In this document: one piece after another, positions 4,839 to 35,453 of the stretch | Layout: every line of letters begins with the position of its first letter | Numbering within the stretch: the first letter of the stretch is position 1 | Assembly (NCBI GenBank): GCA_003697085.1 | Contig: RFFU01000027.1 | Location: 1 to 39,062, forward strand | Reading direction: 5' to 3' | DNA: 39,062 nt | Source: Candidatus Hydrogenedentota bacterium | Lineage (GTDB): Bacteria > UBA8481 > J006 | Program-made: the position numbers and the translations under genes | Notes under the pieces: model-generated | Seen by the model: only the letters and a program-made list of their open reading frames with translations | The model's database searches: none | What the model was told of the DNA's origin: nothing

Positions 4839-4852
4839 GTCTGTACTACATT
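4839..4852 (+). repeat. 14-bp direct repeat inside the IS (partner 6711-6724)
   Basis: GTCTGTACTACATT occurs here and again, identical and in the same orientation, at 6711-6724. The left copy contains the transposase stop codon and the right copy lies 63 bp upstream of the transposase start. Both are preceded by GTAGG at slightly different distances. Direct rather than inverted orientation at the two ends of a transposase gene is unusual. The copies may mark an older element edge or a nested insertion. Confidence 0.7.
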
Positions 4853-6648
4853 TTGGCTTCGGAAAGTGCGTTTTCGGCCGACTTCGGCGGCGCAAGACGC
4901 TTCGGCGGCTGCAGGCCTAAACGCTGCAGGAGAACTTGAAGAGACCTTTCGGGCAGGCTGACGCAGCTGATTCGGATAGTGCGTCCCGTAGAGGTGGGCA
5001 GGATGACATCTGTTGCCTTGAGCCGGCGAACTTCACCAAGCAGGGTTTTCACACTTGAGCCGAGGCCGGCCCGTTCGCTCCATTTTTGAATCGTCTTCCA
5101 CACCGCATAGCCGAGAAACGCGATGAGAATATGCGCCTCGACTCGGCTCTGCTTCTGATGCCAGATTGGGCGTAGATTCAGTGATGACTTAATCGTCCGA
5201 AATGAATCCTCGACGTCAGTCAGATGCATATACTTTCGCCAGATCTCGGACGCGCTCATTCCAGTTGATTCGTTCTCAAAAGATATGCCCCTTCGGACAG
5301 CGCGGCCCATTCCCGATGTTTTTTGAGTCTTTTCCATGTCACCTTCAGACCGTTTGGACGACCGGCGGCCTTGGTTACGTCTATTTGAAAGAATCGAGCC
5401 GACCGGGAGTTTCTCTGGAAAAGTCTCCCTATCTGCCGATTTACCTTGTCTGAGTTCACTTTCTTTTTCGCTCGTCTCAACCTTCGCTGCAGTTTTCAAA
5501 GCCCCGCTTCGATTCGTTTCTCAAATCGCTCATGCATTGCTTTCTCTTTCGCCCTGCGGTCACGGCTTCGGCATAGCACGAACAATTCTTCCTCACTCGG
5601 ACCGGCGCAGACCTTAACTTCCAGCCCATCAGAAACCTATTCCCCGTCCTTTGAAACAAATTCCTCTTCGTATTGACGAAGCATCGACTTCGGCGTCCCG
5701 ACGATATAACCGGCCTCACGCTCCTGAAGAAATTCGATGTTCTCTTCGCTTACCATTCCACGGTCCATCACCCATATTCTTTTTGCCTTCCCGTGGCGCT
5801 CTTCCATCGTTTCCACAATCTCTTCCACCGTCGTCGAATCATTTCGGTTCCCCCCGGAAAGCCTCGTAACCGAACGGCAGGCCGCCCGTGGTTGTCATCA
5901 GCGCTATGCATACTTGTTTGCAATCGAAACGTCGATCCCGGGAATAGCCACGCTGCGCCAGTTCATTACTTTGCGCCTCTCCTTCAAAATAGGTTGATGT
6001 AATGTCGTACAAAACCAGTTCATATTCCGCATTCAACAGTTCGCCGAAGCGTTTCTTCAGGTGCTGCTCAATCCTGACCTTCCGCGGAAACACCGTGTCA
6101 AGGGCACGGTACAGTCTCTGCGCATAAACTTGTTCGGAATCGAGATTCAGCAGATCCCCAAGCGATGTCTGCGGATACCAATCCTGCGCTGTATGTCGTT
6201 CACTTCCCGGGGAACAAACGCGTCCAATAACCATTATCCCTACAATATACGCCCAGGAGATTTCCTCTTTCCCTTCCGGAATCAGGTTCAGAAAGAGTTT
6301 CTCCAGACCCAGCGCGCGCCACGCGGAAAGCGCGAGCCATACGTCCCCAAAATCCCTTGTTTTCTCAACGCGAACACCGTTGATTCTCACATGGACAAGT
6401 TTGGGAACTTCTTCCGTATCCTTATCGTTTTCGCACTCAAAAAGACTCGCCTGGTGGAGCGCTTTCAGCACCGGATCATCCGGCTGTTGCTCTAGGTGCG
6501 CCCACCCTTTGCGCTCAGAAGGAGTCGATTCGCCCAAATACGCGACCGTTCGATGACGCGGACCTTTGGACGTACGCACCGTCTCTGTCAACGCCCAATA
6601 CGAATGAGTCTTTCCGTCTTTTCGCCGTTGATGCCGCTTCAAAAACAT
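4846..6648 (-). pseudogene. IS1634-type transposase, broken by frameshifts and a stop
   Basis: Pieces of one DDE transposase lie in order in different frames. The N-terminal 269 residues (5839-6648) include V-L-Y-D-I-T-S-T-Y-F-E-G with the first catalytic Asp. The next piece (about 5637-5850) has W-V-M-D-R-G with the second Asp. A third frame covers about 5485-5640, and after an in-frame TGA the same frame continues to 5256. The C-terminal part (from about 5265 down to 4846) contains V-E-D-S-F-R-T-I-K-S-S-L, the E-containing YREK-like region. The first shift falls in a run of six C (G on the coding strand) at about 5851-5856. At least three frameshifts plus one stop separate the pieces, so it cannot make an active protein. 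Flanking genes are intact, so sequencing error is unlikely. Confidence 0.85.
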
Positions 6649-31514: not shown

Positions 31515-32357
31515 TCAGCGGTTCGAAGGCAGAATCACCGCCAGGACGTTCTGCGGATAGAGATTCGCCTGCGACAACGCGGAACTCGAAGTCTGTTGGA
31601 GGACTTGCGCACGAGCGAGATTGATCGTTTCCTGTGCCACATCCGCGTCGATGAGCCCGCTGATCGCTTGAGTGTGAGCATCGGCCTGGCTGTTGAGAAA
31701 CGTGTCGTTGTTTTGAAGCCGCGTATCGGTCGCTCCAACGTTGGCCGATTCGTTCGTCACGATATTGATGGCGCTGTCCACGAGTGCCAATGCGGCGGTG
31801 GCGCCGGTTTGCGTCGTGAGATCAAGGTTATCGACTCCGAGTGCGGCCGCGGTCATCGTTGCGATATTGAGTGTGATGAAATTGTTGGCGTCCGCACCCA
31901 CCTGAAATTTGAGTGTGGCCGTTCCCGCCGCGTAATCGCCGCTCAGAAGACTCTTTGCGTTGAAGATGGTGTTGTTGGCGATCGAGGTAATGTCTTTTTG
32001 AAGCGAACTGTACTGCGTCTGGTTCGCGTTCCGGTCCGCCGTTGTGGCGGAACTGCTGGCGGAACTCAACGCCAGCGTCCGAATCGTCTGCAGATCGCTC
32101 AGGATATTCTCCAGCCCGCCTTCCGCCGTCTGAACGAGCGAAAGCGAAACCTGGTTGTCGTTTTCGAGGCGCTGTAAGGAACTCAACCGCGCCTTCAGTC
32201 GCTCCGACATCGCGAACGATCCGGGATCGTCACCCGGCGAATTGACCCGTAAACCGGTCGCCAGGTTCCGAGTAGAAGTCGTAAACAGGTCCGTCGCGAA
32301 CTCGAGTCCGCGAAAGGCGGCCAATGCCGCCAGATTCGTTTGAGTCAAGACTGCCAT
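31515..32357 (-). CDS. fliC: Flagellin
   Basis: 280 residues, a short flagellin. It polymerises into the flagellar filament after export. The N-terminal D0/D1 region carries T-N-L-A-A-L, S-T-R-N-L-A-T-G-L-R-V-N-S-P-G-D-D and a long helical part. The central variable part is small (about 140-220). The C-terminal D1/D0 has the usual S-A-L-S-Q-A-N-x-x-P-Q-N-V-L pattern but ends with an unusual A-V-I-L-P-S-N-R. The ATG at 32357 has GGGAGGGG upstream, in the sequence CCAGGGAGGGG that recurs before neighbouring small genes. No other flagellar gene is in the window. The nearest minus-strand promoter is at 33120-33147, upstream of the small gene at 32471-32770. Confidence 0.92.
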   Translation of the reverse strand: MAVLTQTNLAALAAFRGLEFATDLFTTSTRNLATGLRVNSPGDDPGSFAMSERLKARLSSLQRLENDNQVSLSLVQTAEGGLENILSDLQTIRTLALSSASSSATTADRNANQTQYSSLQKDITSIANNTIFNAKSLLSGDYAAGTATLKFQVGADANNFITLNIATMTAAALGVDNLDLTTQTGATAALALVDSAINIVTNESANVGATDTRLQNNDTFLNSQADAHTQAISGLIDADVAQETINLARAQVLQQTSSSALSQANLYPQNVLAVILPSNR

Positions 32358-32424
32358 GGGTACCCCTCCCTGGTTTTTCTCCGGTCGCGACCGTTCTCTT
32401 TTGCCGCGATACCGGGATAGTCTC

Positions 32425-32470: not shown

Positions 32471-32770
32471 TTATCCGAGAATATCGACCTCCTCTCCCTT
32501 TCCGGCCTCCACCGCGCGTTCCGTGCCCGCCTCGGCCGCTTCCTCACCGCGCCCACCGGCCAACACATTTCCACCGGCGACGACATTTCCCAGCGTCCGG
32601 CCGGCTCTCGCCAATACGCCGGAATCAAGGTTCCTGGTCGATTGTAGGGCTGTTTGGTTCGCCTCGATGACCGCCGTTTCCGTACCCGTCTTTCCGCGGG
32701 GATCCGCGGTCACCGGATTCGCGCCGAAAGCGCTCGCCAATACCGAATCTAAACGCAGATTGCCTGCCAT
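32471..32770 (-). CDS. Small protein upstream of flagellin, unknown function
   Basis: 99 residues, no signal peptide, no membrane span. Residues 14-24 read A-F-G-A-N-P-V-T-A-D-P, and about 52-60 read V-L-A-R-A-G-R-T-L. These recall the N-x-P-V-T-N-P and T-R-x-G-R-R motifs of the small proteins at 33564 and 34159. Residues 41-50 (A-L-Q-S-T-R-N-L-D-S-G) also resemble the flagellin motif S-T-R-N-L-A-T-G. The C-terminus is Gly/Glu/Ala-rich and acidic. The leader GAAAACCAGGGAGGG nearly matches the flagellin leader. Same strand as flagellin and 113 bp upstream, so co-transcription is likely. The overlapping plus-strand frame has no ribosome-binding site and is rejected. Confidence 0.6.
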   Translation of the reverse strand: MAGNLRLDSVLASAFGANPVTADPRGKTGTETAVIEANQTALQSTRNLDSGVLARAGRTLGNVVAGGNVLAGGRGEEAAEAGTERAVEAGKGEEVDILG

Positions 32771-32930
32771 CTTTACTCCCTCCCTGGTTTTCTATCGCAT
32801 CCCGGCCGTCTTTTTCTTCAGCCACGACACGATCCCATCCTAAAACCGTCCGTGTTCGACCTTCCCCGCGCCCGGAATCGCCTCCGCTTCTTCTACCCCT
32901 CCGAGAAAAATTTCTCTTCGCGCCGGAAAT

Positions 32931-33068
32931 TCAAGGAACCTTTATTTTCTCCGGTTGGTAAATTGAGACCGGAGACGTTCCGCAATCCAACGCACGGAAT
33001 ATCCACGAAGGAGGAATGAATTTAACGGAACGGAATTCGATTCGGACGCTCAATCCGTTGAGCCTCAC
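32931..33068 (-). CDS. Possible 45-residue leader protein
   Basis: A GTG frame placed directly behind CAGGGAGGGGAG, the same ribosome-binding element used by the flagellin and small genes. The product has no recognised domain (it starts M-R-L-N-G-L-S-V-R-I-E-F). The spacing from the best GGAGG to the GTG is short. The long hairpin at 32948-32975 lies in its 3' part. It could be a leader peptide, or the ribosome-binding element may be coincidental. Confidence 0.22.
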   Translation of the reverse strand: MRLNGLSVRIEFRSVKFIPPSWIFRALDCGTSPVSIYQPEKIKVP

Positions 33069-33119
33069 CTCCCCTCCCTGAGTGGTGGAGTTATTATGTT
33101 TTTCTCTTTGTTGAAGCTT

Positions 33120-33147
33120 ATTATATTCGCGTCTCCCGAAAAGTCAA
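33120..33147 (-). promoter_or_regulatory. Predicted sigma-70-type promoter for the small gene/flagellin unit
   Basis: On the minus strand: TTGACT (33147-33142), a 16-bp spacer, and TATAAT (33125-33120), an exact -10 box. Transcription would start near 33113. I looked for sigma-28 or sigma-54 motifs typical of flagellin promoters between here and the flagellin start and found none convincing. Confidence 0.6.
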
Positions 33148-33320
33148 GCCTTTTTCCCTCAAAAAATCACCCGCGCCGCGAAAAACCGTGGAATACGCGC
33201 AAGATGAAAAAAAAATGAAGAAAGGAGAAGAAAAAACCACCGGGCGCGCGGCTTCTCGTCCAGGCCGTTCGCTTTGGATTTCAAGTTTCCAGCATCAGGT
33301 TCGTTTGGTGCCTTTTTATC

Positions 33321-33394
33321 TGGGCGGTAGTGGACTCGAACCACTGACCCCTTGCATGTCAAGCAAGTACTCTAACCAGCTGAGCTAACCGCCC
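33321..33394 (-). tRNA. tRNA-Val (anticodon GAC)
   Basis: 74 nt on the minus strand. The acceptor stem GGGCGGT/ACCGCCC with discriminator A, a D-arm with TAGCTCAGCTGGTTAGAG, the anticodon arm CTTGC-TTGACAT-GCAAG giving anticodon GAC, and a T-arm with GGTTCGAGTCC are all intact. The 3' CCA is not encoded. A promoter lies just upstream (33415-33443). Confidence 0.97.
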
Positions 33395-33414
33395 GGTGTA
33401 ATAATCACGATTGG

Positions 33415-33443
33415 ATTCTCGAATCCATTTGGCCTACTGTCAA
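33415..33443 (-). promoter_or_regulatory. Predicted promoter of tRNA-Val
   Basis: On the minus strand: TTGACA (33443-33438), a 17-bp spacer, and GAGAAT (33420-33415). It lies 20 bp from the tRNA 5' end. The inverted repeats GGATTC-TC-GAATCC (33413-33426) and TTTGGCC/GGCCAAA (33428-33434 with 33444-33450) overlap it and could be operators. Confidence 0.55.
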
Positions 33444-33457
33444 GGCCAAAAGACATC

Positions 33458-33486
33458 TTGACATCGTCGTGAGGAAAACGTACACT
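33458..33486 (+). promoter_or_regulatory. Predicted sigma-70-type promoter of the small gene at 33564
   Basis: TTGACA (33458-33463, consensus), a 17-bp spacer, and TACACT (33481-33486). It is back-to-back with the tRNA promoter; the two -35 boxes are 14 bp apart. The leader of about 70 nt holds a CGCGCGA/TCGCGCG stem (33507-33513 with 33530-33536). Confidence 0.65.
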
Positions 33487-33563
33487 TAATTTTTGAAAGG
33501 ATTGTTCGCGCGAGGTTAAGAAAGAGAAATCGCGCGGTTGTTCGGAAAACAAGGAGGGGTCTT

Positions 33564-33779
33564 ATGGCCAGAGAAGATCGCTTTGCGGCCTTCGCGATTC
33601 TCAAGGGGTTCGATAACCTTCCCTTGACGAATCCAACCGTTACAATACGGAAATTCCGCCAGACAACCGCCGCCGCCGTCGCGAAGGGGTTCGTCAACCA
33701 GAACATCGTGCCGAAAGTCGAGCCGGGAAGTACGAGTTTCTTCACTCGTATCGGGCGGCGCTTCGACAGGAAAGCCTGA
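33564..33779 (+). CDS. Small protein, member of a local paralogous pair
   Basis: 71 residues, basic. The Shine-Dalgarno AAGGAGG is 6 nt from the ATG and a consensus-like promoter lies upstream, so expression is likely. It aligns with the protein at 34159: F-A-x-x-x-I-L-K-G-F-D-N-L-P-L-T-N-P here against F-A-S-K-I-V-L-G-G-A-D-N-V-P-V-T-N-P there, and F-F-T-R-I-G-R-R-F-D against A-I-T-R-V-G-R-R-V-D at the C-terminal end. The length is nearly equal. I know of no family with this pattern and see no signal peptide or metal site. Proximity to flagellin suggests a role in motility or the cell surface, but nothing in the sequence proves it. Confidence 0.7.
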   Translation: MAREDRFAAFAILKGFDNLPLTNPTVTIRKFRQTTAAAVAKGFVNQNIVPKVEPGSTSFFTRIGRRFDRKA

Positions 33780-33859
33780 AGAAAATGCTTTCCCTCCCTT
33801 TCAATCTTCTGCCGTCTTATGAAAAATTCCTTCCCTTCCTGAAAAGACCCTTTCTCCCC

Positions 33860-33889
33860 TTGAAATCTTTACGACGGTTCTGTTATATT
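33860..33889 (+). promoter_or_regulatory. Predicted promoter of the small-gene pair at 33980/34159
   Basis: TTGAAA (33860-33865), an 18-bp spacer, and TATATT (33884-33889). The leader (about 33896-33979) contains GGAAG/CTTCC and CCTTC/GAAGG segments that could form two exclusive hairpins just before the ribosome-binding site CAGGGAGGG. Confidence 0.55.
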
Positions 33890-33979
33890 TTGGTTGCAGG
33901 ATGGTTGCCGGAAGCACGAAAAAGGCCGGCGAAAGAAAGGAAGGTGCCTTCCAGACGAAGGGCTTCCAGGGAGGGAAGA

Positions 33980-34168
33980 ATGGATTCTTTCAGGATGACG
34001 AATGCGTTCGATGGCACCGCAACGGCCGAAGAGGGTGCCTTTTTCGCATTCCCGCTGGATTCCTCCATCGCGGACCGGGGACTTCGTTTCGGTCCCGACG
34101 GAAATTCGCTCCTCCGCCCCGCGTCCCAAATCCGATCTCTCGAAAGCGGGGGGTCCCGATGGCTGTAA
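33980..34168 (+). CDS. Small protein of unknown function, translationally coupled
   Basis: 62 residues starting M-D-S-F-R-M-T-N-A-F-D-G-T. The start is preceded by TTCCAGGGAGGGAAGA, close to the leaders of flagellin and of the gene at 32471. The 3' end overlaps the next gene by 10 bp (ATGGCTGTAA). Composition is mixed, with F, G, S and L, and no domain is recognised. It could be a protein whose translation opens the site of the following gene. Confidence 0.45.
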   Translation: MDSFRMTNAFDGTATAEEGAFFAFPLDSSIADRGLRFGPDGNSLLRPASQIRSLESGGSRWL

Positions 34169-34371
34169 TCGACGGATTTGCAAGCAAAATCGTCCTCGGA
34201 GGAGCAGATAACGTTCCGGTGACAAACCCGGACAACATCGCCCGCCTTCGCCGCCGCGACCTCGCCCGCTCGATCCAGGGGACCCAAGCGGAGCGGATAA
34301 CGAACTTCGCCCAGAACGTCCAACTGGCGGCGATCACGCGCGTCGGCCGGCGCGTTGACATCATCGGCTGA
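34159..34371 (+). CDS. Small protein, paralogue of the one at 33564
   Basis: 70 residues. The motif D-N-V-P-V-T-N-P lies at about 17-24 and I-T-R-V-G-R-R-V-D near the C-terminus, both shared with the protein at 33564. The middle (R-L-R-R-R-D-L-A-R-S-I-Q-G-T-Q) is basic and likely helical. GGGGGG lies 5 nt upstream of the ATG at 34159 and the gene overlaps its predecessor by 10 bp. No known family is recognised. The conservation of both end motifs, with a divergent middle, argues that both copies are real and under selection. Confidence 0.65.
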   Translation: MAVIDGFASKIVLGGADNVPVTNPDNIARLRRRDLARSIQGTQAERITNFAQNVQLAAITRVGRRVDIIG

Positions 34372-34601: not shown

Positions 34602-35453
34602 CTATGCCTCTTCAGGTAAGGCGATTCGAATTCTTCCCAACGCTCCTTCCTGCATCACGGTCACTTCCCCTTCCTTGATCATCTCCAGGAGTGCAAGAAA
34701 CATCCCGATGATCAAGGGCTTCGAGCGGCTTGAGCGGAAAAGTTCCTCAAAGACCACCGAACGCTTCTCCCGCAAGAGACCGCGGATTCGTATCATACAA
34801 TCCTCGATGCGCACAACCTCTCTGGCCAGTTCCTGAATCTTCTCCTCGGACGCGCGCGCCAAGACAGTCTGAAAGGCGGAAAGGAGCCGGGTGAGATCGA
34901 CCTTCAATTCTTCCTCGGGCTCCACGGAAACCAACGGCCTGTTCCGCAGAAAGATTCGTTCGCGCGATTTCTTTCTTTCTTCGAGCCGGCGCGCGGCGTT
35001 CTTGAAGCGTTCATATTCCTGGAGCAAGCGAATCAGTTCCTCGCGTGTCATTCCTTCCTCTTCTTCGTCCGCCTCCTCGTCCCGCGGCAACAACTCCCGA
35101 AGTTTGATCTGGACGAGCGTGGCGGCCATAACGAGGAAATCGCCGATGGTGTCGAGGACACTCGGCTCTTCGAACGCCTTTTCCTCGAGATGCGCGACGT
35201 AGGAGACGAACTGGTCCGCGACCTCCGCCACATTGATCTCCTCGATCTCGATCTTCTTCTCGCGGACGAGGTGCAGGAGAAGATCGAGCGGACCGGCAAA
35301 CCGATCGAGTTCGACGTGGCACCCGGCCCAGCGCGTTCCATCGGGAAGTTTGATTCCTTCGGGAAGCCGGATTGCGGGAGCCGATTCGCTCTTCTCCCCC
35401 TCTCGCCTCCGCGCGTTCGAGATGATCTCGGATCCGATCGGGGTTCCCTTCAT
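34602..35453 (-). CDS. scpA: Segregation and condensation protein A
   Basis: 283 residues. ScpA is the kleisin that bridges the SMC heads with ScpB in chromosome condensation. Family motifs: F-A-G-P-L-D-L-L-L-H-L-V-R-E-K-K-I-E-I near the N-terminus, D-F-L-V-M-A-A-T-L-V-Q-I-K-L-R-E-L-L-P, and a C-terminal winged helix F-L-A-L-L-E-M-I-K-E-G-E-V. A 35-residue extension precedes the kleisin N-domain. The start (35453) overlaps the trpS stop as ATGA. scpB does not follow in the window. Confidence 0.93.
   Translation of the reverse strand: MKGTPIGSEIISNARRREGEKSESAPAIRLPEGIKLPDGTRWAGCHVELDRFAGPLDLLLHLVREKKIEIEEINVAEVADQFVSYVAHLEEKAFEEPSVLDTIGDFLVMAATLVQIKLRELLPRDEEADEEEEGMTREELIRLLQEYERFKNAARRLEERKKSRERIFLRNRPLVSVEPEEELKVDLTRLLSAFQTVLARASEEKIQELAREVVRIEDCMIRIRGLLREKRSVVFEELFRSSRSKPLIIGMFLALLEMIKEGEVTVMQEGALGRIRIALPEEA

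Follow-up and report, generated by a model that had tools for sequence, protein, structure and literature searches.

A tandem pair of small paralogous genes in a Candidatus Hydrogenedentota bacterium with putative CsrA-type leader boxes like those of flagellin

In the window, by which we mean the whole stretch of 39,062 nucleotides that was analysed, we identified two tandem genes, A and B, that encode small paralogous proteins under protein-level selection and whose messages appear to carry the same kind of CsrA-type site as flagellin messages. We give about even chances to the reading that they form a lineage-restricted pair, convergent with scpA, under CsrA/FliW translational control like flagellin. 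Judged from their leaders, A and B are probably expressed at the same time as the flagellar filament. The genes are as follows, in window coordinates.

33564..33779, + strand: gene A, 71 aa, first of the paralogous pair (ORF, homology, selection)
34159..34371, + strand: gene B, 70 aa, second of the paralogous pair (ORF, homology, selection)

The ORF listing contains A, B and a 99-aa ORF exactly where a preliminary description of this DNA had placed them, and the motifs that it had noticed in both A (DNLPLTNP...TRIGRRFD) and B (DNVPVTNP...TRVGRRVD) are present. Its proposal that the two are paralogues was borne out by an alignment score of 89 as compared to 22.9 +/- 4.5 for shuffled B (z = 14.8), and by tblastn of the 3.2-Mb genome to which the window belongs (G000), which gave E = 6.6e-5 between A and B and only two copies genome-wide. 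A profile of four members located the family in one further genome, that of Ca. Hydrogenedentes bacterium CG07_land_8_20_14_0_80_42_17 (G001), which belongs to the same order and is placed under Hydrogenedentota at NCBI. The preliminary description had made its case depend on homologues in related genomes, and here they are again a tandem pair.

L007:5396-5650: G1, family member in G001 (profile match)
L007:5691-5915: G2, family member in G001 (profile match)

All six pairings of A, B, G1 and G2 gave z values of at least 9.5, with 9.5-11.9 for the G001 relatives against A and B, and the residues M1, L13, G15, D17, T22, N23, P24, R32 and G64 (A numbering) are invariant across the four members. 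Orthology of A with G1 and of B with G2 was considered and set aside, as the quartet gave no settled branching order. Protein-level selection, a test that had been named in advance, is evident: pN/pS between the family members of G000 and G001 was 0.51-0.72, whereas codon-shuffle nulls gave 0.86-0.90 and only 0 to 5 out of 500 shuffles were as low as observed. At codon positions 1 and 2, nucleotide identity between the genomes was 0.37-0.62, as compared to 0.15-0.23 at the far more diverged position 3. The GC content at third positions is 0.70-0.76 in G000 and 0.32 in G001.

Searches of A and B against Pfam, NCBIfam, PHROGs, PADLOC and PDB sequences gave no significant match, in agreement with the earlier impression that they belong to no known family, and a literature search on the family or on this metagenome-assembled genome found nothing. 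Low-confidence structure models (mean pLDDT 56) predict a first helix (residues 2-13), a loop that spans the conserved GxDNxPxTNP and then a long helix. We take A and B to represent an undescribed paralogous family of small, mostly helical proteins. An amphipathic second helix was looked for and is absent, and alignments of A and B to flagellin were no better than shuffles. The phylum was sampled by two genomes, G000 and G001; no relatives outside the phylum were found in two genome samples, one of 386 that contained both of these and one of 383, nor were there any among viral contigs, phages and plasmids. A pattern scan of bacterial genome contigs returned only G001 plus one chance match in a gammaproteobacterial bin, where it runs antisense to hypF. 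So far, the family is known from just two bacteria, which are related and sparsely sampled.

The preliminary description had grouped these genes into a cluster around flagellin. The neighbourhood contains the following features.

31515..32357, - strand: solo flagellin gene, 280 aa, with Flagellin_N and Flagellin_C (domain matches)
33321..33394, - strand: tRNA-Val (GAC), between the flagellin unit and the A/B pair (RNA search)
34602..35453, - strand: scpA, convergent with the A/B pair (neighbour in both genomes)
L029:2771-3607 (contig C93 of G001): orthologue of the window flagellin, 56% identical

The physical linkage to flagellin did not hold up in the second genome, where the orthologous flagellin lies between dnaK and coaD-pta on C93 with no family member near, and G1 and G2 are on a separate contig, C21. 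The conserved neighbour of the pair, as read from the sequence, is instead the convergent scpA. In the window the pair is followed by convergent scpA-trpS-pycB; in G001, C21 stops right past G2, its end has 23 bases in exact agreement with the scpA stop region of C49 and reads LAEIRISLIK in the scpA frame, and C49 runs on as scpA-trpS-pycB. A and B are thus not part of a flagellin gene cluster. On C49 (L045:1-1170) a DUF4143/AAA_14 ATPase gene stands beside scpA, where C21 has G1 and G2, and the overlap of the two contigs in the 3' end of scpA looks like strain variation at the pair's spot, which would explain the contig break. The recO gene adjoins the pair in G001, an arrangement that G000 does not share, and the tRNA was the only known RNA element found in the region.

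The third small ORF of the supposed cluster was not a family member.

32471..32770, - strand: 99-aa ORF, just upstream of flagellin (ORF; alignments)

This ORF is transcribed toward flagellin, as had been described, and the strings NPVTADP and ARAGRT that had suggested a resemblance to A and B are present. However, it does not combine the family's LxGxDNxPxTNP core with a significant alignment: its scores against A, B, G1 and G2 were at chance (z 0.2-0.5; p about 0.29-0.39 by shuffles). No homologue was found in G001.

Each unit was said to have a consensus-like promoter, and a scan agreed: four sigma-70-like matches were predicted in the region as compared to 1.2 +/- 1.0 in shuffles, and three of these lie upstream of A, of the B unit and of the 99-aa/flagellin unit.

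33458..33486, + strand: predicted sigma-70-like promoter of A, TTGACA-17-TACACT (promoter scan)
33860..33889, + strand: predicted sigma-70-like promoter of the D62-B unit, TTGAAA-18-TATATT, the second hexamer being preceded by TG (promoter scan)
33120..33147, - strand: predicted sigma-70-like promoter of the 99-aa/flagellin unit, TTGACT-16-TATAAT (promoter scan)

Upstream of G1 there is TTGACA-18-TAAACT at a distance similar to that of A's promoter. The orthologous flagellin of G001 also has a sigma-70-like promoter (L029:2500-2770, C93), and its leader holds an 18-codon ORF (MEECRIQRRDKSRTIVIT) with a Shine-Dalgarno sequence at the place that the 99-aa ORF takes in the window.

What A and B have in common with flagellin lies in the leaders.

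33549..33557, + strand: ACAAGGAGG box over the Shine-Dalgarno sequence of A, putatively CsrA-type (leader comparison)
32364..32373, - strand: CCAGGGAGGG box in the flagellin leader (the G001 orthologue has the identical box)
32778..32787, - strand: CCAGGGAGGG box in the leader of the 99-aa ORF, as in that of flagellin (leader comparison)

The Shine-Dalgarno boxes of A, G1 and G2 are ACANGGAGG. The 99-aa ORF and D62, a 62-aa ORF before B, have the CCAGGGAGGG box of flagellin; in G001 this box stands before an ATG only at the orthologous flagellin. The pattern CCAGGGAGGN{3,9}ATG occurs at eight distinct sites in G000, three of which precede flagellin, the 99-aa ORF and D62 within 1.7 kb, and at one site in G001, the orthologous flagellin. 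SELEX gave the CsrA consensus RUACARGGAUGU with an invariant ACANGGA part, and CsrA loops are ANGGAN (PMC7652899); CsrA represses hag (PMC7652899), and CANGGANG hexaloops and the flaA leader are described in PMC4894983. The leaders of D62, the 99-aa ORF and flagellin all contain CCAGGGAGG as a CsrA-type box, the G1 leader fully matches RUACARGGA, and the B leader has no box of its own.

Against a background of 593 mechanically called genes, with chosen starts, from parts of both genomes, CANGGA was found in the Shine-Dalgarno region of 10 out of 11 flagellins and of 23 out of the 593 other genes; among the background genes with a strong Shine-Dalgarno sequence it was found in 13 out of 243 (p 4.7e-11 for the flagellin enrichment). 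ACANGGA was present in three of the four family leaders (A, G1, G2) and in 4 of these 243 genes (p 5.6e-5), a value that is optimistic, as the box was noticed by inspecting these same leaders and the homologous A, G1 and G2 are not independent counts. The flagellin enrichment is therefore the firmer of the two. Stems of 4 to 7 pairs close an ANGGAG hexaloop in the D62 leader and in the flagellin leaders L030, L031, L035 and L036a, whereas the boxes of A, G1, G2 and the 99-aa ORF have closing stems of 1-2 pairs. The 5' leaders were not unusually stable (z -1.4 and -1.6, not significant).

The regulators are present. G000 encodes csrA (PF02599, E 1.4e-24) and fliW (PF02623, E 2.2e-38), and the two genes adjoin in both genomes (L036 on C2 of G000, L089 on C17 of G001), in G000 together with flagellin, flaG and flgL. 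A FliD-like gene on C143 of G000 (L032:6138) has a ACATGGAGG box before its start. Because the CsrA-type boxes are shared with the flagellin genes, we suggest a functional tie of A and B to flagellin; of the motility- or surface-related role suggested earlier, the functional part thus survives through these boxes and the gene linkage falls away.

For B, such control would have to act through D62, which the preliminary description had missed.

33980..34168, + strand: 62-aa ORF D62, its TAA overlapping the ATG of B (ATGGCTGTAA; ORF frame, leader)
33963..33978, + strand: hairpin CUUCC[AGGGAG]GGAAG covering the D62 Shine-Dalgarno sequence, with a CsrA-type ANGGAN hexaloop (folding)
33897..33903, + strand: possible second CsrA site (motif from PMC7652899)

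The hairpin has 5 pairs, and stems of at least 5 pairs were found in only 4 of the 593 background leaders. In E. coli, CsrA represses the short upstream ORF idlP, which is coupled to its target iraD (PMC7652899). We propose CsrA control of B via D62 because D62 overlaps B, B is without its own box and the layout is that of idlP-iraD; by this analogy D62 is probably an upstream ORF, with translation of B coupled to its own. The codon GC of D62 is weakly coding-like. No homologue of it was found, its alignment to A and B was no better than shuffles, and it may not be a real gene. A 26-codon ORF (MKVLQSAEKNMKPMYREAEDGFSGKD; L007:5338-5418) with its own Shine-Dalgarno sequence overlaps the start of G1 and is possibly also a coupled upstream ORF.

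We infer a scheme, from CsrA binding through D62-B coupling to the timing and function of A and B, in which the CANGGAGG box at the ribosome-binding site of the A/B and flagellin mRNAs, a putative CsrA site of the published form, would let CsrA block translation of A directly and that of B indirectly, via the overlapping D62. While the filament is built, export of flagellin would free FliW, FliW would remove CsrA, and A and B would then be made along with flagellin; their most likely roles would be in the filament, at the cell surface or in the flagellin-homeostasis loop. It counts against this scheme that B is boxed only through D62 and that the boxes of A, G1 and G2 are hardly, if at all, closed by a stem. 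A narrower version, with A and B as a dedicated pair of the CsrA-FliW loop that is made only during filament export, B being gated by the CsrA-hairpin D62, and that acts on either the filament or the CsrA-FliW switch, we regard as unlikely.

A flagellar role does not follow from CsrA control, as many non-flagellar genes are under the control of CsrA (PMC7652899). A and B could be a cytosolic, lineage-specific family without a role in motility, in a broader CsrA regulon of carbon storage, stress and surface functions, with flagellin nearby by accident. We consider this a real possibility, if clearly a lesser one than the shared control with flagellin: scpA is the conserved neighbour, the orthologous flagellin is unlinked and the promoters are sigma-70-like rather than of the flagellar sigma-28 type, but CANGGA is concentrated on the flagellins and rare elsewhere, and FliD is among the background matches. 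It is rather improbable that the boxes are merely strong Shine-Dalgarno sequences with no link to CsrA. All of them contain GGAGG and the motif was noticed post hoc; however, the CAN before GGAGG adds no pairing to 16S rRNA, for which the perfect extension is AAA, as in the flaG and glutaredoxin leaders, and CANGGAGG was found in 7 out of 243 strong-Shine-Dalgarno genes as compared to 8 out of 11 flagellins and 5 out of 6 small ORFs.

The remaining alternatives concern the proteins themselves, and we give each of them very little weight. Tandem small, mostly basic proteins in which a conserved hydrophobic stretch has G15 as its last residue could be precursors of a two-peptide bacteriocin or another modified peptide, with a leader ending in Gly before the core. 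Yet DNxPxTNP, which follows the Gly, shows the highest conservation and not the variability of a core, position -2 is K, G, K or S and so makes no double glycine, and no modification, immunity or C39-transporter genes were recognised among the ORFs around either locus. Slightly more remote is a helical-hairpin pair working like the secreted WXG100/ESAT-6 pairs, as the tandem small paralogues and the helix, loop and helix modelled at low confidence in both would have it; A, B, G1 and G2 have no WXG motif and no W at all, they are about 70 aa and not 100, no family match was obtained and a secretion ATPase was not recognised among nearby ORFs. Least probable of all is that the ORFs are spurious. 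They are short, lie in GC-rich DNA and match no database family, but for A and B this idea is refuted by the orthologous tandem pair in a genome of different base composition together with protein selection, Shine-Dalgarno sequences and promoters, whereas the 99-aa ORF and D62 may be spurious.

Under the shared control that we favour, the arrangement resembles the FliW-CsrA-flagellin homeostasis of hag in Bacillus subtilis and flaA in Campylobacter jejuni, with csrA and fliW likewise beside flagellin and ANGGA boxes over the Shine-Dalgarno sequences of flagellin leaders, several in hairpin loops; here, however, the same putative box also precedes unrelated small genes. As in idlP-iraD of Escherichia coli, the start of the next gene is overlapped by a short ORF whose Shine-Dalgarno sequence is covered by a CsrA-type box, whereas D62 has 62 codons and a hexaloop hairpin and the proteins are unrelated. 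The genes for FlaG, FliD and other filament accessory proteins, too, are small or accessory flagellar genes that share their regulation with flagellin, but A and B have no sequence similarity to these proteins, and a typical FlaG is present separately in both genomes. If true, our reading would mean that, in a phylum from which few genomes are available, the CsrA-FliW filament checkpoint also governs small proteins other than flagellin, and the A/B family would gain a testable role; leader control sites can reveal the regulon membership of orphan small genes where the gene neighbourhood misleads. Elsewhere in the window, a transposase-like ORF of 269 aa (5839-6648, - strand) probably forms a broken insertion element with 4846-5499.
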